Below, one piece after another: positions 3,464-64,000 of a stretch of DNA of 64,000 bases; position 1 is the first letter of the stretch, and each line of letters begins with the position of its first letter. Both the position numbers and the translations under genes were made by a program. This DNA is from Trichomonas vaginalis G3. Taxonomy: Eukaryota > Parabasalia > Trichomonadida > Trichomonadidae. The notes beneath the pieces were generated by a model that was not told the DNA's origin, ran no database searches, and was given only the letters and a program-made list of their open reading frames with translations. The stretch spans positions 15,000,205-15,064,204 of the forward strand of contig NC_067206.1 in NCBI RefSeq assembly GCF_026262505.1. Reading direction: 5' to 3'.

Positions 3464-6400
3464 ATGTATCGGAAGTTGTCTAAGTTAGAACACTCGGAAA
3501 TAAAACAACTTCTTACAGAAGCTAATATAGATGTTGCAAAGCATTACGCAACAAACAAAAAAGCACTTGCTGACTTCATTAAAGACTATAATGGTGCAAT
3601 AAGTTATGATATAATTCATGAGTTCATAAAGCCGCAACGCGGCGAGGACGAAGTCCATGCAAGAGCATTTCCTTTAAATGACGTTGCTATTGACTTATAT
3701 CATAGACGTTTAGTACCTCATGAAGTAAGAAGAGAAATGTTTGACATAACAAATGCAAACGTTGGTGAAACAAGAAGAAGAGACGACACACTGAAACAAC
3801 AGAGAAGAGAGATGTTTAAAAGTGCTATAGATCAAGTTCGCAAAGCTAACGATGTCATTCGTTCCATTGACGACAAACCAAAAGAAGGTGAGAGATGGTT
3901 AAAGAAAGATGAAGAGAATAGGAAGAGGAATGTTAAGACAGGCAATAGACTCATTGACTTTAACATCGAAGCTTTAGATGAACCAAACAGAGACTACTTA
4001 CACAAACATTTCGGTAAGGTTTTCATGAGACTCTTAGAGAAGATTAAAATAAACTCCCAACAAAGATGGATGGTATGTTATAAACTTGGTGGAAAGTATG
4101 AATGTTCTACGTTAAACCTCAATAATATTGGAACATTACTACATCAGCTCTTGAAGGAGAACTTTATATCAGAGATAGAAGCAAATGCTGCAGGTATTGT
4201 TGAAATGCACTATGACTTCTTCTTGACAAACATAAAGAATCTTACTGAAATAAAGATGTATGATTTAACAGAATATGAAGGCTTAACGATGTCAGATGTA
4301 AAGAAAGGCAAACCAAAAAAGAGACCATATAGAGATGAAAGCACACTGACAAATGACCAGAAAGCCATTTTGGAAGCTCTTAAGCAAACAGGAAACCCAG
4401 CACTTATAGAAAGCTTTTGGAAAGATAATGGTGAAAAGAAGTTTTATAAGAAGAGAAGCGGTCAGTTCTGGAAGTATCTTTGCACATTACCTATAAATCT
4501 TGAACGCTACCAAATCTTCAATGAACTGAACAAAAGAACTGCACACTTATGACAGAAGACAATTGTTTCGTTTATGCTTGCATTCAGGCTGGAGTAAATG
4601 GAAGAACTATTGACCACATGAGAGAAGTCATTCGTGTTAGAGACTTTCCTCAAAGTAAAGTACAAGAAATTTCTGACGCAACAGGTATAGCATTTAATGT
4701 TACCATTGGTTACTTCAATGACTCAAGACATAATGAAATAAAGAGATACATACCAAAAGAATGTGAAACTGTTCGAACTATTGACTTACTTCTTGTTGAA
4801 GACCACTACATGCTAAATGAAAGATTACCAATGACAACATATTTCATTCGCAACTATATAGAAATCTTGAAGGAGTGTGGTGGAATGAACATTGAGAAAC
4901 AGATGAAGATTTATACAAAGAGAGAGAACAAATATGTAGTTCGTTATGATAGAACAACACCGTTATGGGATGTTATGAAAACATTGTGGGAGTGCAAATA
5001 TTTCGAACCTATTTCTTATGGAGAACTTTTCACATATACGACTGACTTATATAAACAGAACCTTGCACCATTTAAAGATTTGACATATGCTCCAAAGTAT
5101 TGTGTACAACTGAAGAAGAAAGCCGAGTCAAAAGAAGTAAATAAAAATAAGTGTAAGTTCATTCCTGAGCACGTTTTCTTTGCTGACTTTGAGTGTAGCA
5201 CTGATGGAGTTCATAAAGCCTTTAACATATGTTACGACAGTGAAGATGGTTCTGTGAGTGAAAGCATATGGGGTCAAAACTGTGCAACAGAATTTTTGGA
5301 ACGACTTCCTGACAAGAGTTTAATATATTTCCATAACCTCAGTTATGATATAAACTTCATCTTAAGACACATGACAGAAGTGAAAGGAACTCCCATCATT
5401 AAAGGTTCACGAACAATGCAGATAACTGGCTTATATAAAGGAAGGGCAATTATTATAAAAGATTCATACACTGTTATAAATAAGAAGCTTAAACTATTTC
5501 CTGAAATGTTTCATTTGCAGTGTGGTGAAAAGGAAGTATTTCCGTATCAATATTATTCAAGCTCTTTGTTAGCAAATGACAACAGAACTGGTGTCATTTC
5601 TGAAGCGTGTAAGTTTGTAAAAGATATTGATACGTTCATGAAAAACATAGATTCCATCAAAGGTTGCAGAATAGATGAAAACTACTTCGACTTAGAAAAG
5701 TATAGCACATTTTATTGCAAACAAGATGTAAGAATTTTAAGAGAAGGTTTTGTTAAGTTCCGCAATGACATATTAAAAGAATTTGATTTAAACGTTTATG
5801 ATTACGTTAGAATTTGTTCAATTGCTAACAAATTATTTGAGAACAGAGTGTACTTCCCGAATGGAAATTTATATGACCTCTCAAATAAACCAAGAGAATT
5901 TATTTCGCTGTATTCAAGGTGGAAGATGTATGCTGTCAGATAACATGAAACAAAAGAGCGAAAAGAAACTCATTGCTGATTTCGACGCTGTTTCATTATA
6001 TCCATCAGCTATAGCAAGACTTTATACTTTAGAAGGTATTCCAAAGGTTATGAAGAAAGAAATGTTAAGCACAGAGTATCTCATGAGACATTTATTCGAT
6101 GACGACCAAAAGGAACCCATTGGTGAAAAGTTTATGTCTGGCTTCTTTGTTCTCATTAAGATAACAGAGATTGGAATACATAGACACTTTCCTTTAATAG
6201 TTTGTGACCCTGAACTAAATCCAGAACTTAACGTTCCCAGAAGTTCAAACACTTGCTGTTTAATGTATGTTGACCATATAACATTACAAGACCTCATAAA
6301 ATATCAAGGTGTCAAATGTGAAGTGTTGCAAGGATACTATTACGATGGAAACAGAGATATTAGAATAAGAGATGAAGTAAAGAAGTTGTTTGAGTTAAGG

Positions 6401-7267: not shown

Positions 7268-8173
7268 TCATTCGTGATAAAAATAAGCCGCTAGCGGCAA
7301 GGCGAAGCCCATGTGGTCATTTACAATACTGCGATGGTAGAGTTTAAGAGTTTGTGCTTCAATGTAGAGACAGTCCTTATGGTCTGGAGGTAAGAACACT
7401 GGGCAGTTATGGTCATGAGTGGAGAACATGTCTATCCAAAACTCACGATTGAAGCCAGTTAATTTATAGTATTTAGGGTTAGGAAGTGGTGAAGTTCTTG
7501 TATGACCAATGAACTCATTTTCAACTCCCTTACTTAAGTTTGAATATAATATAGCTTGCTTTCTATCCCAAATGGGTGTTACAATCTTTGAAAATTCATT
7601 TTTCCTCGGAAGCATTGCATCATAATTGAAAACATTTTGAAATCATCACTTGGTTCAGAGATTTGAAATCTTATACGTAATGGATTTTCTTTCTTTTTAG
7701 CTACTTCATTGAATGGTGAATATATAACAAACTGACAGTCATGAGTTCCATCTTCATTTTCATTAAATTCATAATGAAAGTCTATAAGTTGTGGCTGACT
7801 ACCTTCTTCTTTCAGTTGTGCAAGAAACTCACGTAAAGGCTGTAAAGTTTGTACTTCAATGTTGAACTTTTTCTCGAACATCTCATTAAATGAAGTCATA
7901 CATTGTTGCAATGTTGTATCGTCTTTAAAGTATTTGTATATGTGAATGTTTTGGGCGCTTAAAGACTGTTCGTCATTTTCTATCTCGACTTGAAGTATAA
8001 AGTCAACCTTTCTGAAAGCACGTGTTATATACATATGTTATGCCAATGTACTTCTCTTCATTTATGTTCACAATGCAGTCTGTTGGAAACTTAAACGTTA
8101 CTCTGTTCCCCTTTATTTTGACGTCAGGGTTTTCACTACTGAACGCAACAGATAAAGGTATTTGTCTATACAT
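7268..8173 (-). pseudogene. Beta-rich virion-like protein, minor-capsid candidate (copy A, frameshifted)
   Basis: About 300 residues are spread over three frames, starting at ATG 8173 (MYRQIPLSVVFSSENP). The first 60 residues (PLSVVF, NRVTFKFPTDCIVNI, EKYIGITSMYITRAF) match the short-strand pattern that opens many Polinton and adenovirus-like minor virion proteins. The C-terminal half has HTRTSPLPNPKYYKLTGFN and DHNCPVFLPPDHKDC. The frame breaks near 8034 (two bases fewer than copy B) and near 7630 (one base fewer). Copy B (29810-30719) breaks elsewhere, so the ancestral gene was continuous. It converges on PolB, with 27 bp between the stops. Structural role inferred; the family was not identified with certainty. 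Confidence 0.6.
7287..7313 (+). repeat. GC-rich palindromic module at 3' end of virion-like gene
   Basis: GCCGCTAGCGGC is followed by AAGGCGAAGCCCATG. It forms the very end of the reverse-strand gene (reading DHMGFALPLAA). The copy-B equivalent (30673-30700) has GGGCGAAGCCC, a perfect GGGC/GCCC stem; copy A has lost one G, which also shifts its frame. Confidence 0.7.
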
Positions 8174-8502: not shown

Positions 8503-8937
8503 ATGAGCTTGTCAAAATCAGAGCGAGAGTCTATTATATTAAATGACGCAAGAGGAATACAACATCCTTTCTATTACGTAAGTCAGAGTAAAGATGGTAA
8601 AATATACGTAAGAAAAAGAAAGGTTCCATTAGCGAATGCAGAAAGCGACAACATTAAGGTGCATGGCAAGGGTGAAGTCCACGAAGCCCATGTTAAGCCT
8701 TCTATTCAAACTGAGCCACCAAAAGAACAAGAAGAAAAGAAGCCAGATGTACTTTCAATAACGAACCAAGAGCTTATTGCAAAGTTCGTGAATTTCATTG
8801 AAAAACAAACCGAGTCAAAGAATCCTGACCCGCCAGTGAAAGAAGTTGAGACAAAAGAGAATGTACAGTTCATTGAAAATGTCAAGAAACAACTTCCACC
8901 ACGAATGCCAAGAAGAAGAGTGAGAATAATGAAGTAA
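8503..8937 (+). CDS. Polinton unknown protein, 144 aa, with FYxxxxxDGxxxxRK motif
   Basis: The protein starts MSLSKSERESIILNDARG. The N-terminus holds HPFYYVSQSKDGKIYVRKRK, which resembles the motif GFYIHTMKDGRVQFRKIKQ in the small gene at 11057. A Pro/Glu/Lys-rich linker follows, then SITNQELIAKFVNFIEKQ and a very basic C-terminus (PRMPRRRVRIMK). A GC-rich module (8661-8692) is embedded in frame. It lies 27 bp before the major capsid gene on the same strand. Family unknown. The basic tail and position suggest a minor virion or scaffold role. Copy B (29044-29478) is intact and nearly identical. Confidence 0.65.
   Translation: MSLSKSERESIILNDARGIQHPFYYVSQSKDGKIYVRKRKVPLANAESDNIKVHGKGEVHEAHVKPSIQTEPPKEQEEKKPDVLSITNQELIAKFVNFIEKQTESKNPDPPVKEVETKENVQFIENVKKQLPPRMPRRRVRIMK
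8661..8692 (+). repeat. Divergent GC-rich module inside the 144-aa gene
   Basis: The module starts GCATGGCAAGGGTGAAGTCC and continues ACGAAGCCCATG. It keeps the GGGTGAAGTCC and CGAAGCCCATG ends of the module but lacks the GCCGC stem. The copy-B version is at 29290-29320. It reads in frame as VHGKGEVHEAH. Confidence 0.5.
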
Positions 8938-11881: not shown

Positions 11882-12060
11882 GTCTTTGTAATGAAATAAA
11901 AAATTTAAAAAAATAAAAATAAGGTTATTTTTTATTTAGTGAGGATGGTAGTGAATTCGTTAGTGAAGTCATTAGTGAAGTCATTAGTGAAGTCGTTTAT
12001 GTGTCAGATGGTTTTGTAAATATTTAAGGTTAAGTTGGTGTTATGGTTGTGTTGTAAAAT
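11882..12060. repeat. Outer terminal-repeat remnant of copy A
   Basis: Three near-copies of GTTAGTGAAGTCATTAGTGA-type 15-mers are followed by GGTTTTGTAAATATTTAAGG and TTGTGTTGTAAAAT. This matches the reverse of 47815-47910 in copy C. The element tip (AGTTAGTATACATATC with hairpin) is missing and the satellite begins at once. Confidence 0.65.
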
Positions 12061-14700
12061 ATTGTCACTCAAATCGTCAGTCATATTGTCACTCAAACTG
12101 TCAGTCATTCACTCACTCAAATCAACAGTCATATTGTCACCCAAACCACAGTCATATTGTCACTCAAACTGTCAGTAATATTCTAATTAAACCGTCAGTC
12201 ATATTGTCAGTCAAACTGTAAGTCATACACTCACTCAAATCAACAATCATATTGTCACTCAAACTATCAGTCTTATTCTCACTAAAACCGTCAGTCATAT
12301 TGTCACTCAAACTATCAGTCATATTGTCACTCAAACTGTCAGTCATTCACTCACTCAAATCAACAGTCATATTGTCACACAAACTGTCAGTCTTATTCTC
12401 ACTAAAACCATCAGTCATACACTCTCTTAAACTATGAATCATATTGTCAGTCAAACTGTAAGTCATACACTCACTCAAATCAACAATCATATTGTCACTC
12501 AAACTATCAGTCTTATTCTCACTAAAACCGTCAGTCATATTGTCACTCAAACTATCAGTCTTATTCTCACTAAAACCATCAGTCATACACTCTCTTAAAC
12601 TATGAGTCATATTGTCACCCAAACTCTCAATCATACACTCACTCAAATCAACAGTCATAGTGTCTGTCAAACCACAGTCATATTGTCACTCAAACTGTCA
12701 GTAATATTCTAATTAAAGTCGTCAGTCATATTGTCAGTCAAACTGTAAGTCATACACTCACTCAAATCAACAGTCATATTGTCACACAAACTGTCAGTCT
12801 TATTCTCACTAAAACCATCAGTCATACACTCTCTTAAACTATGAGTCATATTGTCACCCAAACTCTCAGTTATATTCTAAATAAAACCGTAAGTCATAGA
12901 GGCTGTCAAACCGTCAGTCATATTGTCGGTCAAACTGTCAGTCTTACTCTCAATAAAAAGCTAATTCATAGTGTCTGTCAAACCACAGTCATATTGTCAC
13001 TCAAACTGTCAGTAATATTCTAATTAAACCGTCAGTCATATTGTCAGTCAAACTGTAAGTCATACACTCACTCAAATCAACAATCATATTGTCACTCAAA
13101 CTATCAGTCTTATTCTCACTAAAACCATCAGTCATACACTCTCTTAAACTATGAGTCATATTGTCACCCAAACTGTCAGTCTTATTCTCACCCAAACCGA
13201 CAGTCATATATTCATTCAAATTAGCAGTCATATTGTCACTCAAACTGTCAGTCTTATTCTCACTAAAACCATCAGTCATACACTCTCTTAAACTATGAGT
13301 CATATTGTCACCCAAACTCTCAGTTATATTCTAAATAAAACCGTAAGTCATAGAGGCTGTCAAACCGTCAGTCATATTCTAACTAAAAAGCTAATTCATA
13401 GTGTCTGTCAAACCATCACTCATATTGTCACTCAAATTGTCAGTCATACACTCACTCAAATCAACAGTCATATTGTCACCCAAACTGTCAGTCTTATTCT
13501 AACTAAAACCGTATGTCATAGAGGCTGTCAAACTGTCAGTCATATTCTAACTAAAACCGTAAGTCATAGTGTGTGTCAAACCATCAGTCATATTGTCAGT
13601 CAAACTATCAGTCTTACTCTCAATAAAAAGCTAATTCATAGTGTCTCTCAAACCGAAGTCATATTGTCAGTCAAACTATCAGTCTTATCCTAACTAAAAA
13701 GCTAATTCATAGTGTGTGTCAAACCGTCAGTCATATTGTCACTCAAACTGTCAGTCTTATTCTAACTAAAACCGTAAGTCATAGTGTGTGTCAAACCGTC
13801 AGTCATATTGTCAGTCAAACTGTCAGTTTTACTCTCAATAAAAAGCTAATTCATAGTGTCTGTCAAACCGAAGTCATATTGTCACTCAAACCGTCAGTCA
13901 TATTGTCATTAAAACGGTCAGTCATACACTCACTCAAATCAACAGTCATATTGTCAGTCAAACTGTCAGTCTTATTCTCACTAAAACCATCAGTCATACA
14001 CTCTCTTAAACTATGAGTCATATTGTCACCCAAACTCTCAATCATACACTCACTCAAATCAACAGTCATATTGTCTGTCAAACCGTCAGTTATATTGTCA
14101 GTCAAACTATCAGTCTTATTCTAACTAAAACCGTAAGTCATAGTGTGTGTCAAACCGTCAGTCATATTGTCAGTCAAACTGTCAGTTTTACTCTCAATAA
14201 AAAGCTAATTCATAGTGTCTGTCAAACCGAAGTCATATTGTCACTCAAATTGTCAGTCATACACTCACTCAAATCAACAGTCATATTGTCACCCAAACTG
14301 TCAGTCTTATTCTCACTAAAACCATCAGTCATACACTCTCTTAAACTATGAGTCATATTGTCACCCAAACTCTCAATCATACACTCACTCAAATCAACAG
14401 TCATATTGTCAGTCAAACCGTCAGTTATATTGTCAGTCAAACTATCAGTCTTATTCTAACTAAAACCGTAAGTCATAGTGTGTGTCAAACCGTCAGTCAT
14501 ATTCTCAGTCATACTGTAGTTCATACTATCACCCAAACTGTTGTTCATACTGTCACTCAAACTCTAAGTCATATTGTCAGTCAAACTGTGAGTCATATTC
14601 TCTCTCAAACCTTGAGTTATACTGACAACCAAACCCTCATTCAAAATGTCACTCAAACTGTCAGTTATATTCCTAGACACATTCAAACTTTCAGGCATAT
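12061..14700. repeat. 24-bp minisatellite, ~2.6 kb, several monomer types
   Basis: Units are variants of CAGTCATATTGTCACTCAAACTGT. The main types carry TTATTCTCACTAAAACC, TACACTCACTCAAATCAA or TACACTCTCTTAAACTATGA. The period is 24 bases (8 codons), so many frames on both strands stay open (e.g. MTDSLSDN on the reverse strand, SHIVTQTV on the forward). Monomer types recur in the same order, giving a higher-order repeat: GTCAAACCGAAGTC at 13862 and 14221 is 359 bases apart. The array degenerates after about 14600. I treat it as non-coding satellite DNA attached to the broken end of copy A. Confidence 0.9.
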
Positions 14701-19337: not shown

Positions 19338-20612
19338 ATGAATTTGTACACCTTAGTTGATTCAGCTTGGCTTGAAACAGCTCTAGCACAGATTCAAAGG
19401 CGCACACCGTTAGCCATTGTTCTCACAAATGTTCCATTAGTCAACAACACTATTCGTTCATCAATTAACAAGATAACATTTTACAAAGCTCTCTTATGTA
19501 ATAGACTAATTACTATTGAAGAGTACTTACATCATACATACAAACTTCAAGAGTTTACTACTTTCTACATTAAATATAATAATCGACTCTACGAGTGTTC
19601 ATCCATTTTGAAACACAGAGATGACACTCTCCTTACCGATTATTTGATATTACAAAGTTCAAACGACTCTCGTATACAGGAAGAACCCTCATCAGCCAAC
19701 GCTCCTCTTCAACGCCAGCTTTCATCAGCCAGCACTACCAACTCTGTTCCACAGCAACAGCTCTCAACAGCCAACGCTCCTCTACAAAGCCCACTTTCTG
19801 CCAACACCCCGCCACAACGCCAGCTCTCTGCCAACGCTCCTCTTCAACGCCAGCTTTCATTAGCCAGCAGTACCAACACTCCCTCACAACCACAACTCTC
19901 TGCCAGCACTCCCCCACAACGCCAGCTCTCTGCCAACTCTCTTCCACAGCAACAACTCTCTGCCAACACCCAGACACAACGCCAGCTCTCTGCCAACTCT
20001 CTTCCACAGCAACAACTCTCTGCCAACACCCAGACACAACTCCAGCTCTCTGCCAACACCCAGACACAACGCCAGCTCTCTGCCAACAACCCTCTTCAGC
20101 GCCAGCTATCTGCCAACACTTCGGCACAGCAACAACTCTCTGCCAACACTCCCCCACAACGCCAGCTCTCTGCCAACACTCCTCTTCAACGCCAACTCTC
20201 TGCCAACACTCCCCCACAACGCCAGCTCTCTGCCAACACCTCGGCACAGCAACAACTCTCTGCCAACACTCCCCCACAGCAACAGCTCTCTGCCAATACT
20301 CAGCCTCAGCCTCACCCATCTGTGTCTATTCCCCTTAAGCGCGGGAGACCCAACGTTAATGTACCAAAAGATCTTAAGGTAACTATTAGAAACCTAATTG
20401 AGCAGCATGGCCATCTTGGAATAATCTCCGCCTATAACCAAATAAATAAAGATATCGAATATGCCAAATCTCATTTTGAGGCATTTTTGGACATGAAGAC
20501 GGGTATTGTTCCACAGACAACGCCTACCCAAGCATGGTTCTCCGCTATTGAACGTTTTAAGCCCCTGAATCAAATTTCTTCCACAATTCCTTCCGGACTT
20601 AAGGTCAGGTAA
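19338..20612 (+). CDS. Unknown repeat protein, ~424 aa, with ~20 ten-residue SANTPPQRQL-type repeats
   Basis: The N-terminal ~110 residues (MNLYTLVDSAWLETALAQIQ, then ITFYKALLCNRLITIEEYL) form a compact, probably helical domain. About 20 tandem 30-bp repeats follow (consensus LSANTPPQRQ). The C-terminal domain begins PLKRGRPNVNVP, an AT-hook-like KRGRP, and continues IRNLIEQHGHLGIISAYNQ to about residue 424. The ATG at 19338 is preferred to an in-frame TTG nine bases upstream. The repeats are far more GC-rich than the flanks. The initiator suggests a genuine host gene, though it sits between transposons and could be element cargo. Function unknown; DNA binding by the KRGRP segment is possible. 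Confidence 0.68.
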   Translation: MNLYTLVDSAWLETALAQIQRRTPLAIVLTNVPLVNNTIRSSINKITFYKALLCNRLITIEEYLHHTYKLQEFTTFYIKYNNRLYECSSILKHRDDTLLTDYLILQSSNDSRIQEEPSSANAPLQRQLSSASTTNSVPQQQLSTANAPLQSPLSANTPPQRQLSANAPLQRQLSLASSTNTPSQPQLSASTPPQRQLSANSLPQQQLSANTQTQRQLSANSLPQQQLSANTQTQLQLSANTQTQRQLSANNPLQRQLSANTSAQQQLSANTPPQRQLSANTPLQRQLSANTPPQRQLSANTSAQQQLSANTPPQQQLSANTQPQPHPSVSIPLKRGRPNVNVPKDLKVTIRNLIEQHGHLGIISAYNQINKDIEYAKSHFEAFLDMKTGIVPQTTPTQAWFSAIERFKPLNQISSTIPSGLKVR

Positions 20613-20842
20613 GTGGGGCTTCCAGGCGCGTTGCGCCCTCTAGCCCATAAGAAATTTTGCCCAAGACCCAAGAGGAGGACCGAACCCCAGCCGACCAGCC
20701 GGTGACAAAACCAAAACCGTTGTTATTTACATCATATTAATGGTGTCACTTTTGTTTCACTTTTCACAAATTATATATGTTTTCCTGTTTTGTCACTTTT
20801 CTGTCACTTTTCGGGTAAAAACATTTTTATTATTATATATAA
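20613..20842. other. GC-rich hairpin island and upstream region of element D
   Basis: Immediately after the stop comes GGGGCTTCCAGGCGCGTTGC followed by GCCCTCTAGCCC. It can fold with the outer stem GGGCT/AGCCC and inner stem GGCGC/GCGCC, in the style of the GC modules in the Polintons. A C-rich stretch follows (CCAAGAGGAGGACCGAACCC). From about 20712 the sequence turns A/T-rich with repeats of TGTCACTTTT, probably the upstream region of the methyltransferase gene. Confidence 0.45.
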
Positions 20843-29043: not shown

Positions 29044-29478
29044 TTACTTCATTATTCTCACTCTTCTTCTTGGCATTCGTGGTGGACGTTGTTTCTTGAC
29101 ATTTTCAATGAACTGTACATTCTCTTTTGTCTCAACTTCTTTCACTGGTGGGTCAGGGTTCTTTGACTCGGTTTGTTTTTCAATGAAATTCACGAACTTT
29201 GCAATAAGCTCTTGGTTCGTTATTGAAAGTACATCTGGCTTCTTTTCTTCTTGTTCTTTTGGTGGCTCAGTTTGAACAGAAGGTTTTATATGGGCTTCGT
29301 GGACTTCACCCTTGCCATGCACCTTAATGCTGTCGCTCTCTGCATTTGCTAATGGTACCTTTCTTTTTCTTACGTATATTTTACCATCTTTACTCTGACT
29401 TACGTAATAGAAAGGATGTTGTATTCCTCTTGCGTCATTTAATATAATAGACTCTCGCTCTGATTTTGACAAGCTCAT
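29044..29478 (-). CDS. Polinton unknown protein with FYxxxxxDG motif, copy B
   Basis: This intact 144-residue counterpart of 8503-8937 differs at only a few residues. It carries HPFYYVSQSKDGKIYVRKRK, the embedded GC module read as VHGKGEVHEAH, and the basic end PRRRVRIMK. The start codon is 46 bp from the divergent Lys/Glu-rich gene, with TTTTTTATCTGCAG between them. Function unknown; probably virion-associated from its place before the capsid gene. Confidence 0.64.
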   Translation of the reverse strand: MSLSKSERESIILNDARGIQHPFYYVSQSKDGKIYVRKRKVPLANAESDSIKVHGKGEVHEAHIKPSVQTEPPKEQEEKKPDVLSITNQELIAKFVNFIEKQTESKNPDPPVKEVETKENVQFIENVKKQRPPRMPRRRVRIMK

Positions 29479-29809: not shown

Positions 29810-30719
29810 ATGTATAGACAAATACCTTTATCTGTTGTGTTCAGTAGTGAAAACCCTGACGTCAAAATAAAGGGGAACAGAGTAACGTTTAAGTTTCCAA
29901 CAGACTGCATTGTGAACATAAATGAAGAGAAGTACATTGGCATAACATCTATGTATATAACACGTGCTTTCAGAAAGGTTGACTTTATACTTCAAGTCGA
30001 GATAGAAAATGACGAACAGTCTTTAAGCGCCCAAAACATTCACATATACAAATACTTTAAAGACGATACAACATTGTTGCAATGTATGATTTCATTTAAT
30101 GAGATGTTTGAGAAAAAGTTCAACATTGAAGTACAAACTTTACAGCCTTTACGTGAGTTTCTTGCACAACTGAAAGAAGAAGGTAGTCAGCCACAACTTA
30201 TAGACTTTCATTATGAATTTAATGAAAATGAAGATGGAACACATGACTGTCAGTTTGTTGTATTCTCACCATTCAATGAAGTCGCTAAAAAGAAAGAAAA
30301 TCCATTACGTATAAGATTTCAAATCTCTGAACCAAGTGATGATTTCAAGAATGTTTTCAATTATGATGCAATGCTTCCGAGGAAAATGAATTTTCAAAGA
30401 TTGTAACACCTGGCATTTGGGATAGAAAGCAAGCTATATTATATTCAAACTTAAGTAAGGAAGTTGAAAATGAGTTCATAGGTCATACAAGAACTACACC
30501 ACTTCCTAACCCTAAATACTATAAATTAACTGGCTTCAATCGTGAGTTTGGATAGACATGTTCTCCACTCATGACCATAACTGCCCAGTGTTCTTACCTC
30601 CAGACCATAAGGACTGTCTCTACATTGAAGCACAACTCTTAAACTCTACCATCGCAGTATTGTAAATGACCACATGGGCTTCGCCCTTGCCGCTAGCGGC
30701 TTATTTTTATCACGAATGA
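29810..30719 (+). pseudogene. Beta-rich virion-like protein, minor-capsid candidate (copy B, frameshifted)
   Basis: The first 198 residues are open from MYRQIPLSVVFSSENPDVKI, including the segment broken in copy A. The frame is lost near 30385 (one A fewer than copy A), within the shared segment MLPRK. Further indels follow near 30410 and 30550. Comparing copies gives a continuous ancestral gene of about 303 residues. The 3' end carries the GC module (30673-30700). It converges on PolB with under 30 bp between stops. Confidence 0.6.
30673..30700 (-). repeat. GC-rich palindromic module, copy B virion-like gene end
   Basis: Read on the reverse strand it is GCCGCTAGCGGCAAGGGCGAAGCCCATG: stem GCCGC/GCGGC and stem GGGC-GAA-GCCC, both perfect. 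Compare 7287-7313, which lacks one G. Confidence 0.7.
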
Positions 30720-33700: not shown

Positions 33701-34923
33701 TCTGTTAAATCATACATCTTTATTTCAGTAAGATTCTTTATGTTTGTCAAGAAGAAGTCATAGTGCATTTCAACAATACCTGCAGCATTTGCTTCTATCT
33801 CTGATATAAAGTTCTCCTTCAAGAGCTGATGTAGTAATGTTCCAATATTATTGAGGTTTAACGTAGAACATTCATACTTTCCACCAAGTTTATAACATAC
33901 CATCCATCTTTGTTGGGAGTTTATTTTAATTTTCTCTAAGAGTCTCATGAAAACCTTACCGAAATGTTTGTGTAAGTAGTCTCTGTTTGGTTCATCTAAA
34001 GCTTCGATATTAAAGTCAATGAGTCTATTGCCTGACTTCACATTTCTCTTCCTATTCTCTTCATCTTTCTTTAACCATCTCTCACCTTCTTTTGGTTTGT
34101 CGTCAATGGAACGAATGACATCGTTAGCTTTGCGAACTTGTTCTATAGCGCTCTTAAACATCTCTCTTCTCTGTTGTTTCAGTGTGTCGTCTCTTCTTCT
34201 TGTTTCACCAACGTTTACATTTGTTATGTCAAACATTTCTCTTCTTACTTCATGAGGTACTGAACGTCTATGATATAAGTCAATAGCAACGTCATTTAAA
34301 GGAAATGCTCTTGCATGGACTTCGTCCTCGCCGCGTTGCGGCTTTATGAACTCATGAATTCTATCATCTACTTCAAACGTTTCTTTACCTTTCATGGGAA
34401 CACCATACATTTTCTCAAACTTTTCAAGTAGTTCTGTTTCAGCAGCTCTCATATCATTAACGAACACAACCTTGACTCTATTGACTGTAGAGTCATATCT
34501 TTGAGTTATATTATATGTTCTTCCTATCTTATATCTCTTTGTATTGAAGTCCTTCGGTTTCTGAACGATGTAAAGTAAGCCTTCACTGCAACGTTCCGTA
34601 TCGAATGAACCATAAGTTATGAAGTTATATCCAACAACTGGGTCTAACCATAACAAAACTATTGGTATAAGACTTTTGTCAATGAGATATGCTGTAGTTC
34701 CATAGAATCTTACCGATATCATAAGCTCAGGATTTCTTGTCAAAATTTTCTGAGTTGAAGCATTTCTAACCCAGTGGTTTGTTTTCTTTTCAGATGGTGT
34801 TATAATGTCTGACAAAGAATATTTGTTGTATTTCTTACAGTATCTTACGTTTAAATCACCTATTCTAACCACTTTGGTGTCATTGTCTATCTTTCTAACT
34901 GTTTCAAACTCAATGTTTGACAT
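30747..34923 (-). pseudogene. polB: T5orf172-PolB fusion gene (copy B), polymerase part frameshifted
   Basis: From ATG 34923 a single open frame of ~896 residues joins most of the KilA-N/T5orf172 protein (to ETFEVDD) to the PolB extension from IHEFIKPQRGEDEV. It reads on through RTAALMTEDNCFVYACIRAG into the exonuclease domain (ADFEC, HNLGYDINFI). A 4-base microhomology (ATGA) marks the join. The deletion removed the KilA-N gene, the small reverse gene, the PolB promoter and ~49 PolB residues. From about 32270 to 30900 the frame shifts repeatedly. Motif C here is SDTDSMHLY, the canonical form. The uninterrupted extension-polymerase frame shows that the two were originally one protein. Confidence 0.88.
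34314..34342 (-). repeat. GC-rich palindromic module, copy B PolB extension
   Basis: The forward strand reads CATGGACTTCGTCC, then TCGCCGCGTTGCGGC. It is identical to the module at 3631-3659 in reverse. Both stems are perfect. Confidence 0.7.
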
Positions 34924-36980: not shown

Positions 36981-37009
36981 CATGGACTTCATCCTCGCCG
37001 CTTTGCGTC
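36981..37009 (-). repeat. GC-rich palindromic module, intergenic between KilA-N and integrase genes
   Basis: The reverse strand reads GACGCAAAGCGGCGAGGATG then AAGTCCATG. It resembles the PolB-extension module but has one mismatch in stem 1 (GACGC/GCGGC) and one in stem 2 (GGAT/GTCC). Being outside any gene, it may be decaying. Confidence 0.6.
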
Positions 37010-41954: not shown

Positions 41955-41998
41955 ACTGACGGCGCAAAGCGCCAAGATGGGCTCAAAGAGCCCTCCTG
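41955..41998. repeat. GC-rich double hairpin between convergent genes
   Basis: TGACGGCGCAAAGCGCCAAG then ATGGGCTCAAAGAGCCCTCC. Stems are GGCGC-AAA-GCGCC and GGGCTC-AAA-GAGCCC, both perfect. It lies between convergent stops (41945 and 42005), where a bidirectional terminator would be expected. Copy C has instead GTCAGTCAGTCTGACTG (51970-51990), also palindromic. Confidence 0.65.
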
Positions 41999-42004
41999 AC
42001 TGCT

Positions 42005-44820: not shown

Positions 44821-45045
44821 ATGAGCTTGTTCTTGAAGGTCATTCATGATGAAATAACTGTTGTAGAAGATGTTAGCAATTGTTCAGACATTTTGAAGCG
44901 TATAGATGATATAAGAAAGAAGTTAGATAGACCGCAAAGCGGTGAGGGCGAAGCCCGTGAGAACGCTTATGTTTCATTGACTTTCTCCAGTAACGAGAAC
45001 TTTTATGAGATAATATTGAAGAGAGATGATTTTAATATGGTGTAA
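44821..45045 (+). CDS. Small unknown protein, 74 aa, carrying a GC module
   Basis: It starts MSLFLKVIHDEITVVEDVSN on the base after the previous stop. RIDDIRKKLDRPQSGEGEAR spans the embedded GC module (44932-44959), and the end is YEIILKRDDFNMV. The next gene's ATG follows immediately, so three genes are stacked without spacers and are probably on one transcript. Copy C (48938-49162) is intact and differs by one residue in the part compared (NAY/NVY). Family unknown. Confidence 0.6.
   Translation: MSLFLKVIHDEITVVEDVSNCSDILKRIDDIRKKLDRPQSGEGEARENAYVSLTFSSNENFYEIILKRDDFNMV
44932..44959 (+). repeat. GC-rich palindromic module in 74-aa gene (copy B)
   Basis: CCGCAAAGCGGTGAGGGCGAAGCCCGTG in two parts: stem CCGC-AAA-GCGG and stem GGGC-GAA-GCCC. 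The second stem is GGGC/GCCC here and GGAC/GTCC in the PolB module, a paired change. Confidence 0.75.
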
Positions 45046-48937: not shown

Positions 48938-49162
48938 TTACACCATATTAAAATCATCTCTCTTCAATATTATCTCATAAAAGTTCTCGTTACTGGAGAA
49001 AGTCAATGAAACATAAACGTTCTCACGGGCTTCGCCCTCACCGCTTTGCGGTCTATCTAACTTCTTTCTTATATCATCTATACGCTTCAAAATGTCTGAA
49101 CAATTGCTAACATCTTCTACAACAGTTATTTCATCATGAATGACCTTCAAGAACAAGCTCAT
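48938..49162 (-). CDS. Small unknown protein, 74 aa, copy C
   Basis: It is intact and nearly identical to 44821-45045, with the GC module at 49024-49051 read in frame as DRPQSGEGEAR. It abuts its neighbours without spacers, again suggesting one transcript for three virion-side genes. Function unknown. Confidence 0.6.
   Translation of the reverse strand: MSLFLKVIHDEITVVEDVSNCSDILKRIDDIRKKLDRPQSGEGEARENVYVSLTFSSNENFYEIILKRDDFNMV
49024..49051 (-). repeat. GC-rich palindromic module, copy C 74-aa gene
   Basis: The forward strand reads CACGGGCTTCGCCCTCACC then GCTTTGCGG. Identical to the module at 44932-44959 in reverse. Confidence 0.72.
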
Positions 49163-61092: not shown

Positions 61093-64000
61093 ATGTATCG
61101 GAAGTTGTCTAAGTTAGAACACTCGGAAATAAAACAACTTCTTACAGAAGCTAACATAGATGTTGCAAAACATTACGCAACAAACAAAAAAGCACTCGCT
61201 GACTTCATTAAAGACTATAATGGTGCAATAAGTTATGATAGAATTCATGAGTTCATAAAGCCGCAACGCGGCGAGGACGAAGTCCATGCAAGAGCATTTC
61301 CTTTAAATGACGTTGCTATTGACTTATATCATAGACGTTCAGTACCTCATGAAGTAAGAAGAGAAATGTTTGACATAACAAATGCAAACGTTGGTGAAAC
61401 AAGAAGAAGAGACGACACACTGAAACAACAGAGAAGAGAGATGTTTAAGAGCGCTATAGAACAAGTTCGCAAAGCTAACGATGTCATTCGTTCCATTGAC
61501 GACAAACCAAAAGAAGGTGAGAGATGGTTAAAGAAAGATGAAGAGAATAGGAAGAGAAATGTGAAGTCAGGCAATAGACTCATTGACTTTAACATCGAAG
61601 CTTTAGATGAACCAAACAGAGACTACTTACACAAACATTTCGGTAAGGTTTTCATGAGACTCTTAGAGAAAATTAAAATAAACTCACAACAGAGATGGAT
61701 GGTATGTTATAAACTTGGTGGAAAGTATGAATGTTCTACGTTAAACCTCAATAATATTGGAACATTACTACATCAGCTCTTGAAGGAGAACTTTATATCA
61801 GAGATAGAAGCAAATGCTGCAGGTATTGTTGAAATGCACTATGACTTCTTCTTGACAAACATAAAGAATCTTACTGAAATAAAGATGTATGATTTAACAG
61901 AATATGAAGGCTTAACGATGTCAGATGTAAAGAAAGGCAAACCAAAAAAGAGACCATATAGAGATGAAAGCACACTGACAAATGACCAGAAAGCCATTTT
62001 GGAAGCTCTTAAGCAAACAGGAAACCCAGCACTTATAGAAAGCTTTTGGAAAGATAATGGTGAAAAGAAGTTTTATAAGAAGAGAAGCGGTCAGTTCTGG
62101 AAGTATCTTTGCACATTACCTATAAATCTTGAACGCTACCAAATCTTCAATGAATGAACAAAAGAACTGCAACACTTATGACAGAAGACAATTGTTTCGT
62201 TTATGCTTGCATTCAGGCTGGAGTAGATGGAGAGACTATTGACCACATGAGAGAAGTCATTCGTGTTAGAGACTTTCCTCAAAGTAAAGTACAAGAAATT
62301 TCTGACGCAACAGGTATAGCATTTAATGTTACCATTGGTTACTTCAATGACTCAAGACATAATGAAATAAAGAGATACATACCAAAAGAATGTGAAACTG
62401 TTAGAACTATTGACTTACTTCTTGTTGAAGACCACTACATGCTAAATGAAAGATTACCAATGACAACATATTTCATTCGCAACTATATAGAAATCTTCAA
62501 AGTGTGGTGGAATGAACATTGAGAAACAAATGAAGATTTATACAAAGAGAGAAGATAAATATGTAGTTCGTTATGATAGAACAACACCGTTATGGGATGT
62601 TATGAAAACATTGTGGGAGTGCAAATATTTCGAACCTATTTCTTATGGAGAACTTTTCACATATACGACTGACTTATATAAACAGAACCTTGCACCATTT
62701 AAAGATTTGACATATGCTCCAAAGTATTGTGTACAACTGAAGAAGAAAGCCGAGTCAAAAGAAGTAAATAAAAATAAGTGCAAGTTCATTCCTGAGCACG
62801 TTTTCTTTGCTGACTTTGAGTGTAGCACAGACGGCTTTCATAAAGCTTTTAACATTGTTATGACAGTGAAGATGGTTCAGTGAGTGAAAGCATTTGGGGT
62901 CAGAACTGTGCAACAGAATTTTTGGAACGACTTCCTGACAAGAGTTTAATATATTTCCATAACCTCAGTTATGATATAAACTTCATCTTAAGACACATGA
63001 CAGAAGTGAAAGGAACTCCCATCATTAAAGGTTCACGAACAATGCAAATAACTGGCTTATATAAAGGAAGGGCAATTATTATAAAAGACTCTTACAGTGT
63101 TATAAATAAGAAGCTTAAACTATTTCCTGCTATGTTTAACTTACAAACAGGACCGAAAGAAGTATTTCCATACAACTACTACAGCAGTGTTTTGTTAGCA
63201 AATGACAACAGAACTGGTGTCATTTCTGAAGCATGTAAGTTTATAGATAGATACATTCATGAAAAACATAGATTCCATCAAAGGTTGCAGAATAGATGAG
63301 AACCACTTCGACTTAGAAAAGTATAGCACATTTTATTGCAAACAAGATGTAAGAATTTTAAGAGAAGGTTTTGTTAAGTTCCGCAATGACATATTGAAAG
63401 AATTTGATTTAAACGTTTATGACTACGTTAGTATTTGTTCAATTGCTAACAAATTATTTGAGAACAGAGTGTACTTCCCGAATGGAAATTTATATGACCT
63501 CTCAAATAAACCAAGAGAATTTATTTCACGCTGTATTCAAGGTGGAAGATGTATGCTGTCAGATAACATTAAACAAAAGAGCGAAAAGAAACTCATTGCT
63601 GACTTCGACGCTGTTTCATTATATCCATCAGCTATAGCAAGACTTTATACTTTAGAAGGTATTCCAAAGGTTATGAAGAAAGAAATGTTAAGCACAGAGT
63701 ATCTCATGAGACATTTATTCGATGACGACCAAAAGGAACCCATTGGTGAAAAGTTTATGTCTGGCTTCTTTGTTCTCATTAAGATAACAGAGATTGGAAT
63801 ACATAGACACTTTCCTTTAATAGTTTGTGACCCTGAACTAAATCCAGAACTTAACGTTCCCAGAAGTTCAAACACTTGCTGTTTAATGTATGTTGACCAT
63901 ATAACATTACAAGACCTCATAAAATATCAAGGTGTCAAATGTGAAGTGTTGCAAGGATACTATTACGATGGAAACAGAGATATTAGAATAAGAGATGAAG
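61093..64000 (+). pseudogene. polB: Protein-primed PolB, copy C (frameshifted, continues past window)
   Basis: The N-terminal extension is open from MYRKLSKLEHSEIKQLLTEA for 354 residues. Frame changes near 62153, 62500, 62865 and 63245 follow. The OTU-like segment (EDNCFVYACIQAGVDG to VEDHYMLNE), the exonuclease motifs ADFEC and HNLSYDINFI, and polymerase motif A (DFDAVSLYPS, about 63605, out of the initial frame) are present. Around 63520 it has the two bases missing from copy A (TTTCACGCTG), so there C shows the correct frame. Motifs B and C lie beyond the edge. Confidence 0.88.
61260..61288 (+). repeat. GC-rich palindromic module, copy C PolB extension
   Basis: GCCGCAACGCGGCGAGGACG then AAGTCCATG. 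Identical to 3631-3659. Confidence 0.72.

Follow-up and report, generated by a model that had tools for sequence, protein, structure and literature searches.

A probable mobile 27-bp double-hairpin micro-element in the Mavericks of Trichomonas vaginalis

Rickettsia palindromic elements (RPEs) are described as dispersed palindromes that interrupt protein-coding genes of unrelated function without breaking the frame (PMC10969869). The module studied here resembles them in being palindromic and in frame in unrelated genes, with six ORF sites and existing empty alleles. However, RPEs are about 150 bp long and bacterial, whereas the module is 27 bp long and eukaryotic, has so far been found in Maverick-type DNA only and uses a short target word. 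Mitochondrial GC clusters and double-hairpin elements (yeast GC42 and relatives) are described as short, G+C-rich palindromes in A+T-rich DNA, with presence/absence variation and flank-mediated exchange (PMC4478555). The module likewise consists of two G+C-rich hairpins in A+T-rich DNA. GC clusters are organellar and, as that account describes them, mostly intergenic, with AG/ACT repeats read as target duplication, but the module lies mostly in ORFs and shows no target duplication of 2-3 bp. It is also located on chromosome-size contigs of 20-40 Mb and not in mitochondrial DNA.

Two further systems share single features with the module. The byp elements of Magnusiomyces mitochondria are nucleotide blocks inserted in coding genes (PMC5009743). 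Byps disrupt the reading frame and ribosomes skip them, whereas the module is open and in frame. They have a hairpin form and are mobile. Pandoravirus MITEs are reported as small non-autonomous repeats in the genomes of large DNA viruses (PMC4495683). The module is far shorter than these. MITEs have terminal inverted repeats and target duplication; the module has neither terminal inverted repeats around an interior nor target duplication, and its inverted arms form two adjacent hairpins instead of termini. A sequence-only reading of this DNA had likened the module to the Rickettsia and mitochondrial elements. This likeness concerns manner and not demonstrated descent. The portions of the open-licence literature covered by our search contain no description of such a module and no eukaryotic nuclear counterpart of the coding palindromes or organellar double hairpins.

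Architecture and copies in the window

We analyzed a stretch of 64,000 nucleotides of T. vaginalis G3 (the window), whose gene content includes the PolB, rve integrase and KilA-N of Mavericks. The insert is very probably a mobile 27-bp double-hairpin micro-element of these Mavericks. It is built from stem 1 (5 bp, loop of 3 bases), the linker GA (once AA), stem 2 (4 bp, GNA loop) and one purine, and its junctions are AA on the left and YG on the right. The module is G+C-rich and the surrounding window has about 34% G+C. A strict structural descriptor, which specified nothing beyond base pairing, linker and GNA loop, matched five places in the window, and none of 60 dinucleotide shuffles yielded a match. 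A letter pattern gave six matches in the window against 0.17 expected.

Twelve places in the window had been named as carrying the module, and ten of them do (five exact, one with two changes, two short and two decayed; Table 1). The two dropped, at 20616 and 41955, had been considered related members and are stable hairpins of other geometry. These G+C-rich hairpins (window 20612-20650 and 41955-42000) lie immediately 3' of ORF ends and are possibly transcript-end signals. Inverted module copies about 11-12 kb apart occur in the window and in many of the listed pairs.

Table 1. Copies of the module in the window
Feature	Position	Strand	Remarks
27-bp insert, exact, PolB-1 N-terminal region	3631-3657	+	in-frame (I)KPQRGEDEVH; homologues P0028-P0032 exactly 9 residues shorter at the insert
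27-bp insert, exact, PolB-1 site, another Maverick copy	61260-61286	+	structural descriptor
27-bp insert, exact, PolB-1 site behind a different N-terminal head (T5orf172)	34316-34342	-	structural descriptor
27-bp insert, exact, 74-aa gene, form A (A-T closes stem 1)	44931-44957	+	157 empty copies of the gene site elsewhere in the genome
27-bp insert, exact, 74-aa gene, form A	49026-49052	-	structural descriptor
27-bp insert, two stem positions changed, short ORF directly 3' of the rve integrase ORF	36983-37009	-	empty copies elsewhere
Shortened module, 25 nt, 3' of PolB-1 (stop codon, 7240)	7287-7311	+
Shortened module, 26 nt, flanks as at 7287, another Maverick	30675-30700	-
Decayed module in the 144-aa gene	8658-8681	+	stem GGTGC-ATG-GCACC in intact relatives
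Decayed module in the 144-aa gene	29300-29323	-

The copies at 7287 and 30673 had been assigned to the end of a virion-like gene. That assignment was not borne out, as these copies do not clearly lie in a conserved gene end. The window ORFs at these copies are on the minus strand (115 aa) and the plus strand (73 aa), and the antisense ORFs of relatives are mostly absent. No antisense ORF of at least 60 aa spans the post-PolB-1 module in the loci L040, L045, L049, L054 and L055, and L108 has one of 62 aa. The post-PolB-1 site appears to be non-coding. In some copies, its module is tandemly duplicated 75-76 bp apart (L045 on the minus strand, L054 and L055 on the plus strand, near 1498-1600).

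Two other features of the window were observed. PolB-1 has two N-terminal heads, T5orf172 (GIY-YIG-like; window 34941-32233, minus strand) and MYRKLS (3464-4552, plus strand), and the head switch is about 20 nt upstream of the module. In a rough string test, the MYRKLS class made up 29 of the 30 PolB-1 matches in the fetched loci, with overlapping loci counted twice. Long tandem arrays of 24-bp and 30-bp repeats lie at 12045-14400 and 19770-20327.

Genome-wide sites and empty alleles

All DNA-level evidence comes from searches of one assembly (180.85 Mb, 86 contigs). With up to two mismatches, CCGCNNNGCGGNGAGGNCGAAGNCC matched the genome 1920 times (980 + 940), and the reversed control gave no match. 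The 100 matches listed for it are mainly in PolB-1 and the 74-aa gene, both amplified with Mavericks; most module copies arise through Maverick amplification. There are seven distinct sites, which is a lower bound. Six are in Maverick/Polinton ORFs (PolB-1, PolB-2, the 74-aa gene, a fibre-like gene, a short ORF after the integrase and the 144-aa gene) and one is 3' of PolB. New insertions are rare or other module forms were overlooked, since only seven sites turned up with the genome patterns.

The expectation that further copies exist was confirmed in the fibre-like gene, in a second PolB and in an intact 144-aa form with a different first stem. A pattern excluding PolB-1 and the 74-aa gene gave 21 matches, 16 in the fibre-like gene, which carries phage-tail-repeat domains, and 5 with post-PolB-1 flanks. 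At the integrase-end site, 67 copies were listed in the short ORF that follows the integrase ORF. The PolB-2 site has at least 100 zero-mismatch copies, and all eight of those fetched are in a second, diverged PolB. The pattern that led to the 144-aa gene had 65 matches (control 1), comprising the intact 144-aa form with its very different stem 1 (Table 1), copies in decay and the match L110, which is unrelated. When the pattern was widened for other first stems, one of the 20 genome matches was apparently due to chance and the others were known sites in decayed or displaced form. A fixed-letter module pattern had no match in viral_contigs; its single match among the collected prokaryote genomes, to an actinobacterium, is probably due to chance.

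Some details of the 144-aa gene and of PolB-2 should be recorded. The 144-aa form occurs six times on one strand with a spacing of about 8.8 kb (G000:C4:8166219-8210093), which suggests that a Maverick segment is tandemly repeated there. In some copies of the 144-aa gene (L105, L112 and window 8658-8690), the final bases of the insert occur a second time behind it (ACGAAGCCCA), through a later duplication that added a few codons in frame. PolB-2 is classed as a polymerase by the source name ("DNA/RNA polymerase superfamily") and by a sub-threshold Pfam match of one relative, and we also take its motifs to be those of a polymerase. Pfam detected no polymerase in the fetched PolB-2 piece itself, no PolB-2 relative was confirmed in viral_contigs, and the two matches among solved structures (E 0.63 and 0.91) are not meaningful.

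Empty alleles without exactly 27 bp or nine codons were found at six sites, four at the DNA level and two (PolB-1 and the 144-aa gene) at the protein level. Homologous genes thus do not always carry the residues, as the sequence-only reading had anticipated for an inserted module. In PolB-2, a near relative reads STVK-LN-DKT where the filled form reads STVK-IKPQSGEVVDR-DKT, a difference of nine codons (27 bp), and the insert point is inside the Asn codon, between AA and T/C. Seven PolB-2 proteins (P0001-P0007) are 9 residues shorter in this way. The empty pattern for this site, composed after the empty protein P0001 was known, matched 508 copies with up to two mismatches, and all 100 listed were exact. 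The empty alleles of the fibre-like gene, the 74-aa gene and the integrase end were predicted from the model beforehand and then searched for. The fibre-like gene has 4 empty copies in the genome (2 exact), and the 74-aa gene has 157 within three mismatches, with all 100 listed being exact. The integrase end gave 29 within three mismatches, none exact; 21 are good fits, and the 8 doubtful ones, which read GTCATAAACGACC, were left out of the count. Two of the GTCATAAACGACC places are about 850 bp from a filled copy (G000:C2:17870402 and 17969786), so the eight matches are probably another place, and the element there may contain a second, related site. Reversed-pattern controls gave zero at all four sites searched.

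Forms A and B of the 74-aa gene differ in the insert and in the adjoining upstream seven bases (L002 and L003 vs L015 and L030; window 44931). Its empty alleles have the form B flank in all 100 listed.

At the protein level, the closer aligned PolB-1 homologues P0015 and P0019 have the insert that P0028-P0032 lack. In the 144-aa gene, two of the 120 homologues listed (P0136 and P0142) are exact empty forms, 9 residues shorter: P0136 has ESDSI-N-IKPS vs ESDNI-KVHGTEGEAH-VKPS in P0041. P0133, P0138 and P0139 have other deletions and were not counted, and P0145-P0160 are too diverged at this spot to judge. The more distant PolB-2 homologues P0008, P0009 and P0011 are also without the insert. Because distant homologues are without it, the insert is the derived state and was gained by insertion. 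In the closest pair, empty L122 and filled L095, the flanks agree at 79/80 and 80/80 positions (159/160). No duplicated word of two or more bases was found between empty and filled alleles.

Base pairing and encoded residues

For the covariation analysis, we aligned nine inserts that differ from one another, each site contributing one or two, without gaps; this set excludes copies that are decayed or 25-26 nt long, further occurrences of an insert already included and single variants such as L033, L056 and L094. In this set, 98.8% of the pair cells are paired. Four of the nine pairs changed on both sides between sites, a value reached in none of 500 shuffles, and sliding the partner strand abolishes the signal. 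The covariation thus exceeds that of the shuffles. The paired change in stem 2 between GGAC/GTCC and GGGC/GCCC, noticed from the letters alone, is real, and there is a third form, GGTC/GACC. Loop 1 is free. The constancy of stem 2, its GNA loop and the YG end is partly built in, because all genome patterns specified parts of stem 2 and the majority also specified the loop or the YG end. Two broken pairs were found, an A.G mismatch in stem 1 of all 67 integrase-end rows listed and an unpaired A in stem 2 of 6 of the 100 PolB-2 rows listed.

The paired changes may also be mechanical. Where DNA is replicated by strand displacement, hairpin-templated correction, in which one arm is copied from the other, can act on short perfect palindromes, and stems could remain paired by this process instead of by structural selection. 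We consider this rather unlikely. Arm copying leaves the shared GNA loop of stem 2 unexplained, yet the search patterns favored that loop.

In single-strand folding, four of the six typed inserts were clearly better than shuffles as DNA, and most also as RNA. The after-PolB insert and the window integrase-end insert were not clearly better as DNA (16 and 14 of 200 shuffles as good). The window copies near 7287 and 8655 fold no better than shuffles (45 and 139 of 200 as good). Short DNA hairpins closed as C-GNA-G have unusual stability. Rfam gave no match at the gathering score in the window, and a known RNA family was therefore rejected for the copies there. The retained pairing across sites, the folding of most typed inserts and the inverted copies would also suit domesticated hairpins, kept for a role in Maverick RNA or DNA (packaging, translation control or replication pausing) rather than selfish. 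This is improbable, because many Maverick gene copies do without the module (508 in PolB-2, 157 in the 74-aa gene, at least 21 at the integrase end and 4 in the fibre-like gene), the sites are scattered over unrelated genes and the window has no Rfam match.

The insertions keep the frame, as had been claimed: intact copies have one common frame at all six ORF sites. Another sense frame hits TAA within the common ATAAA flank. At these six sites, the module adds nine codons and sits between the second and third bases of an Asn codon (AAY), a position deduced from the protein for two of the six. The homologue P0032 is an exception with His, and in form A of the 74-aa gene the codon would be one for Ser. 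The inserts are hairpins within coding genes, as the mobile byp elements of yeast mitochondria are, and might be skipped in translation. This is scarcely credible because the insert is open and in frame and needs no bypass; no matched codons were seen at the module junctions.

The residues encoded under the stems (DEV, GEA and VVD) and under loop 1 (QR, QS, RS, LC and VH) vary while the pairing is kept. The conserved thing is the nucleic-acid form and not the peptide, since encoded residues change while the stems stay paired. The common frame of the intact copies at six ORF sites and the acidic, hydrophilic peptide could point to an ancestral or functional motif (IKPxxGExEAH) common to Maverick proteins. 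However, such a motif is highly improbable: residues of stem and loop 1 vary under constant base pairing, homologues lack the residues and empty sites exist, the post-PolB-1 site appears non-coding, and the G+C-rich insert stands out from the window. The ancestral motif was ruled out by the homologues without the insert and the free change of residues.

Possible route of movement

The form B insert of the 74-aa gene and the PolB-1 insert are identical (27/27) and have unrelated flanks. In PolB-2, the flank base at -5 and the two insert versions occur in all four combinations (L090, L091, L093 and L095), and for this reason the insert is exchanged as a unit, via recombination or repeated insertion. 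The empty targets read AA^YGA (the caret marks the insert point) at the four DNA-level sites, and AA^TG is deduced for the other three.

We infer that the module is selfish and would spread as single-stranded DNA. During the protein-primed replication of a Maverick, both mini-hairpins would form in the displaced strand. At a place like ATAAA^YGA, an end that is broken or stalled could pair with a donor copy through the short flanks that match, copy 27 bases from the donor and then rejoin. Insertions that break genes would be lost, whereas hydrophilic peptides of the KPxxGExExH type in tolerant places would survive, and the surviving inserts would then be multiplied along with the whole Maverick. 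We favor this microhomology-guided copying of single-stranded hairpin DNA as a candidate route. Because the donor has the same short flanks, such copying would account for the exact length as well as for orientation, codon phase and the missing duplication.

The main rival is movement by a dedicated enzyme that recognizes AA^YG specifically, be it a nuclease, an integrase or a recombinase, of Maverick or host origin. We regard it as a distinct possibility, if short of probable. The junctions and the 27-bp length are uniform, and the Mavericks in the window encode an rve integrase, KilA-N and T5orf172 (GIY-YIG-like). However, target duplication, expected from an rve integrase, is not seen, no candidate is linked to the module, and sites are few although AAYG is a short and common word.

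It is quite possible, though we say so tentatively, that the module is a new mobile unit in a eukaryotic nucleus. It would be a 27-nt double mini-hairpin moving between genes of protein-primed, virus-like elements by self-copying through single-stranded DNA at AA^YG(A), and its length of exactly nine codons and its codon phase would let it live in replication and structural genes. The insert is very short with defined ends and a defined target, and a single genome contains hundreds of gene copies with and without it, so the movement of palindromic micro-elements becomes directly testable. The insert also shows that coding sequence grows by a fixed step of nine codons within PolB and fibre-like genes.
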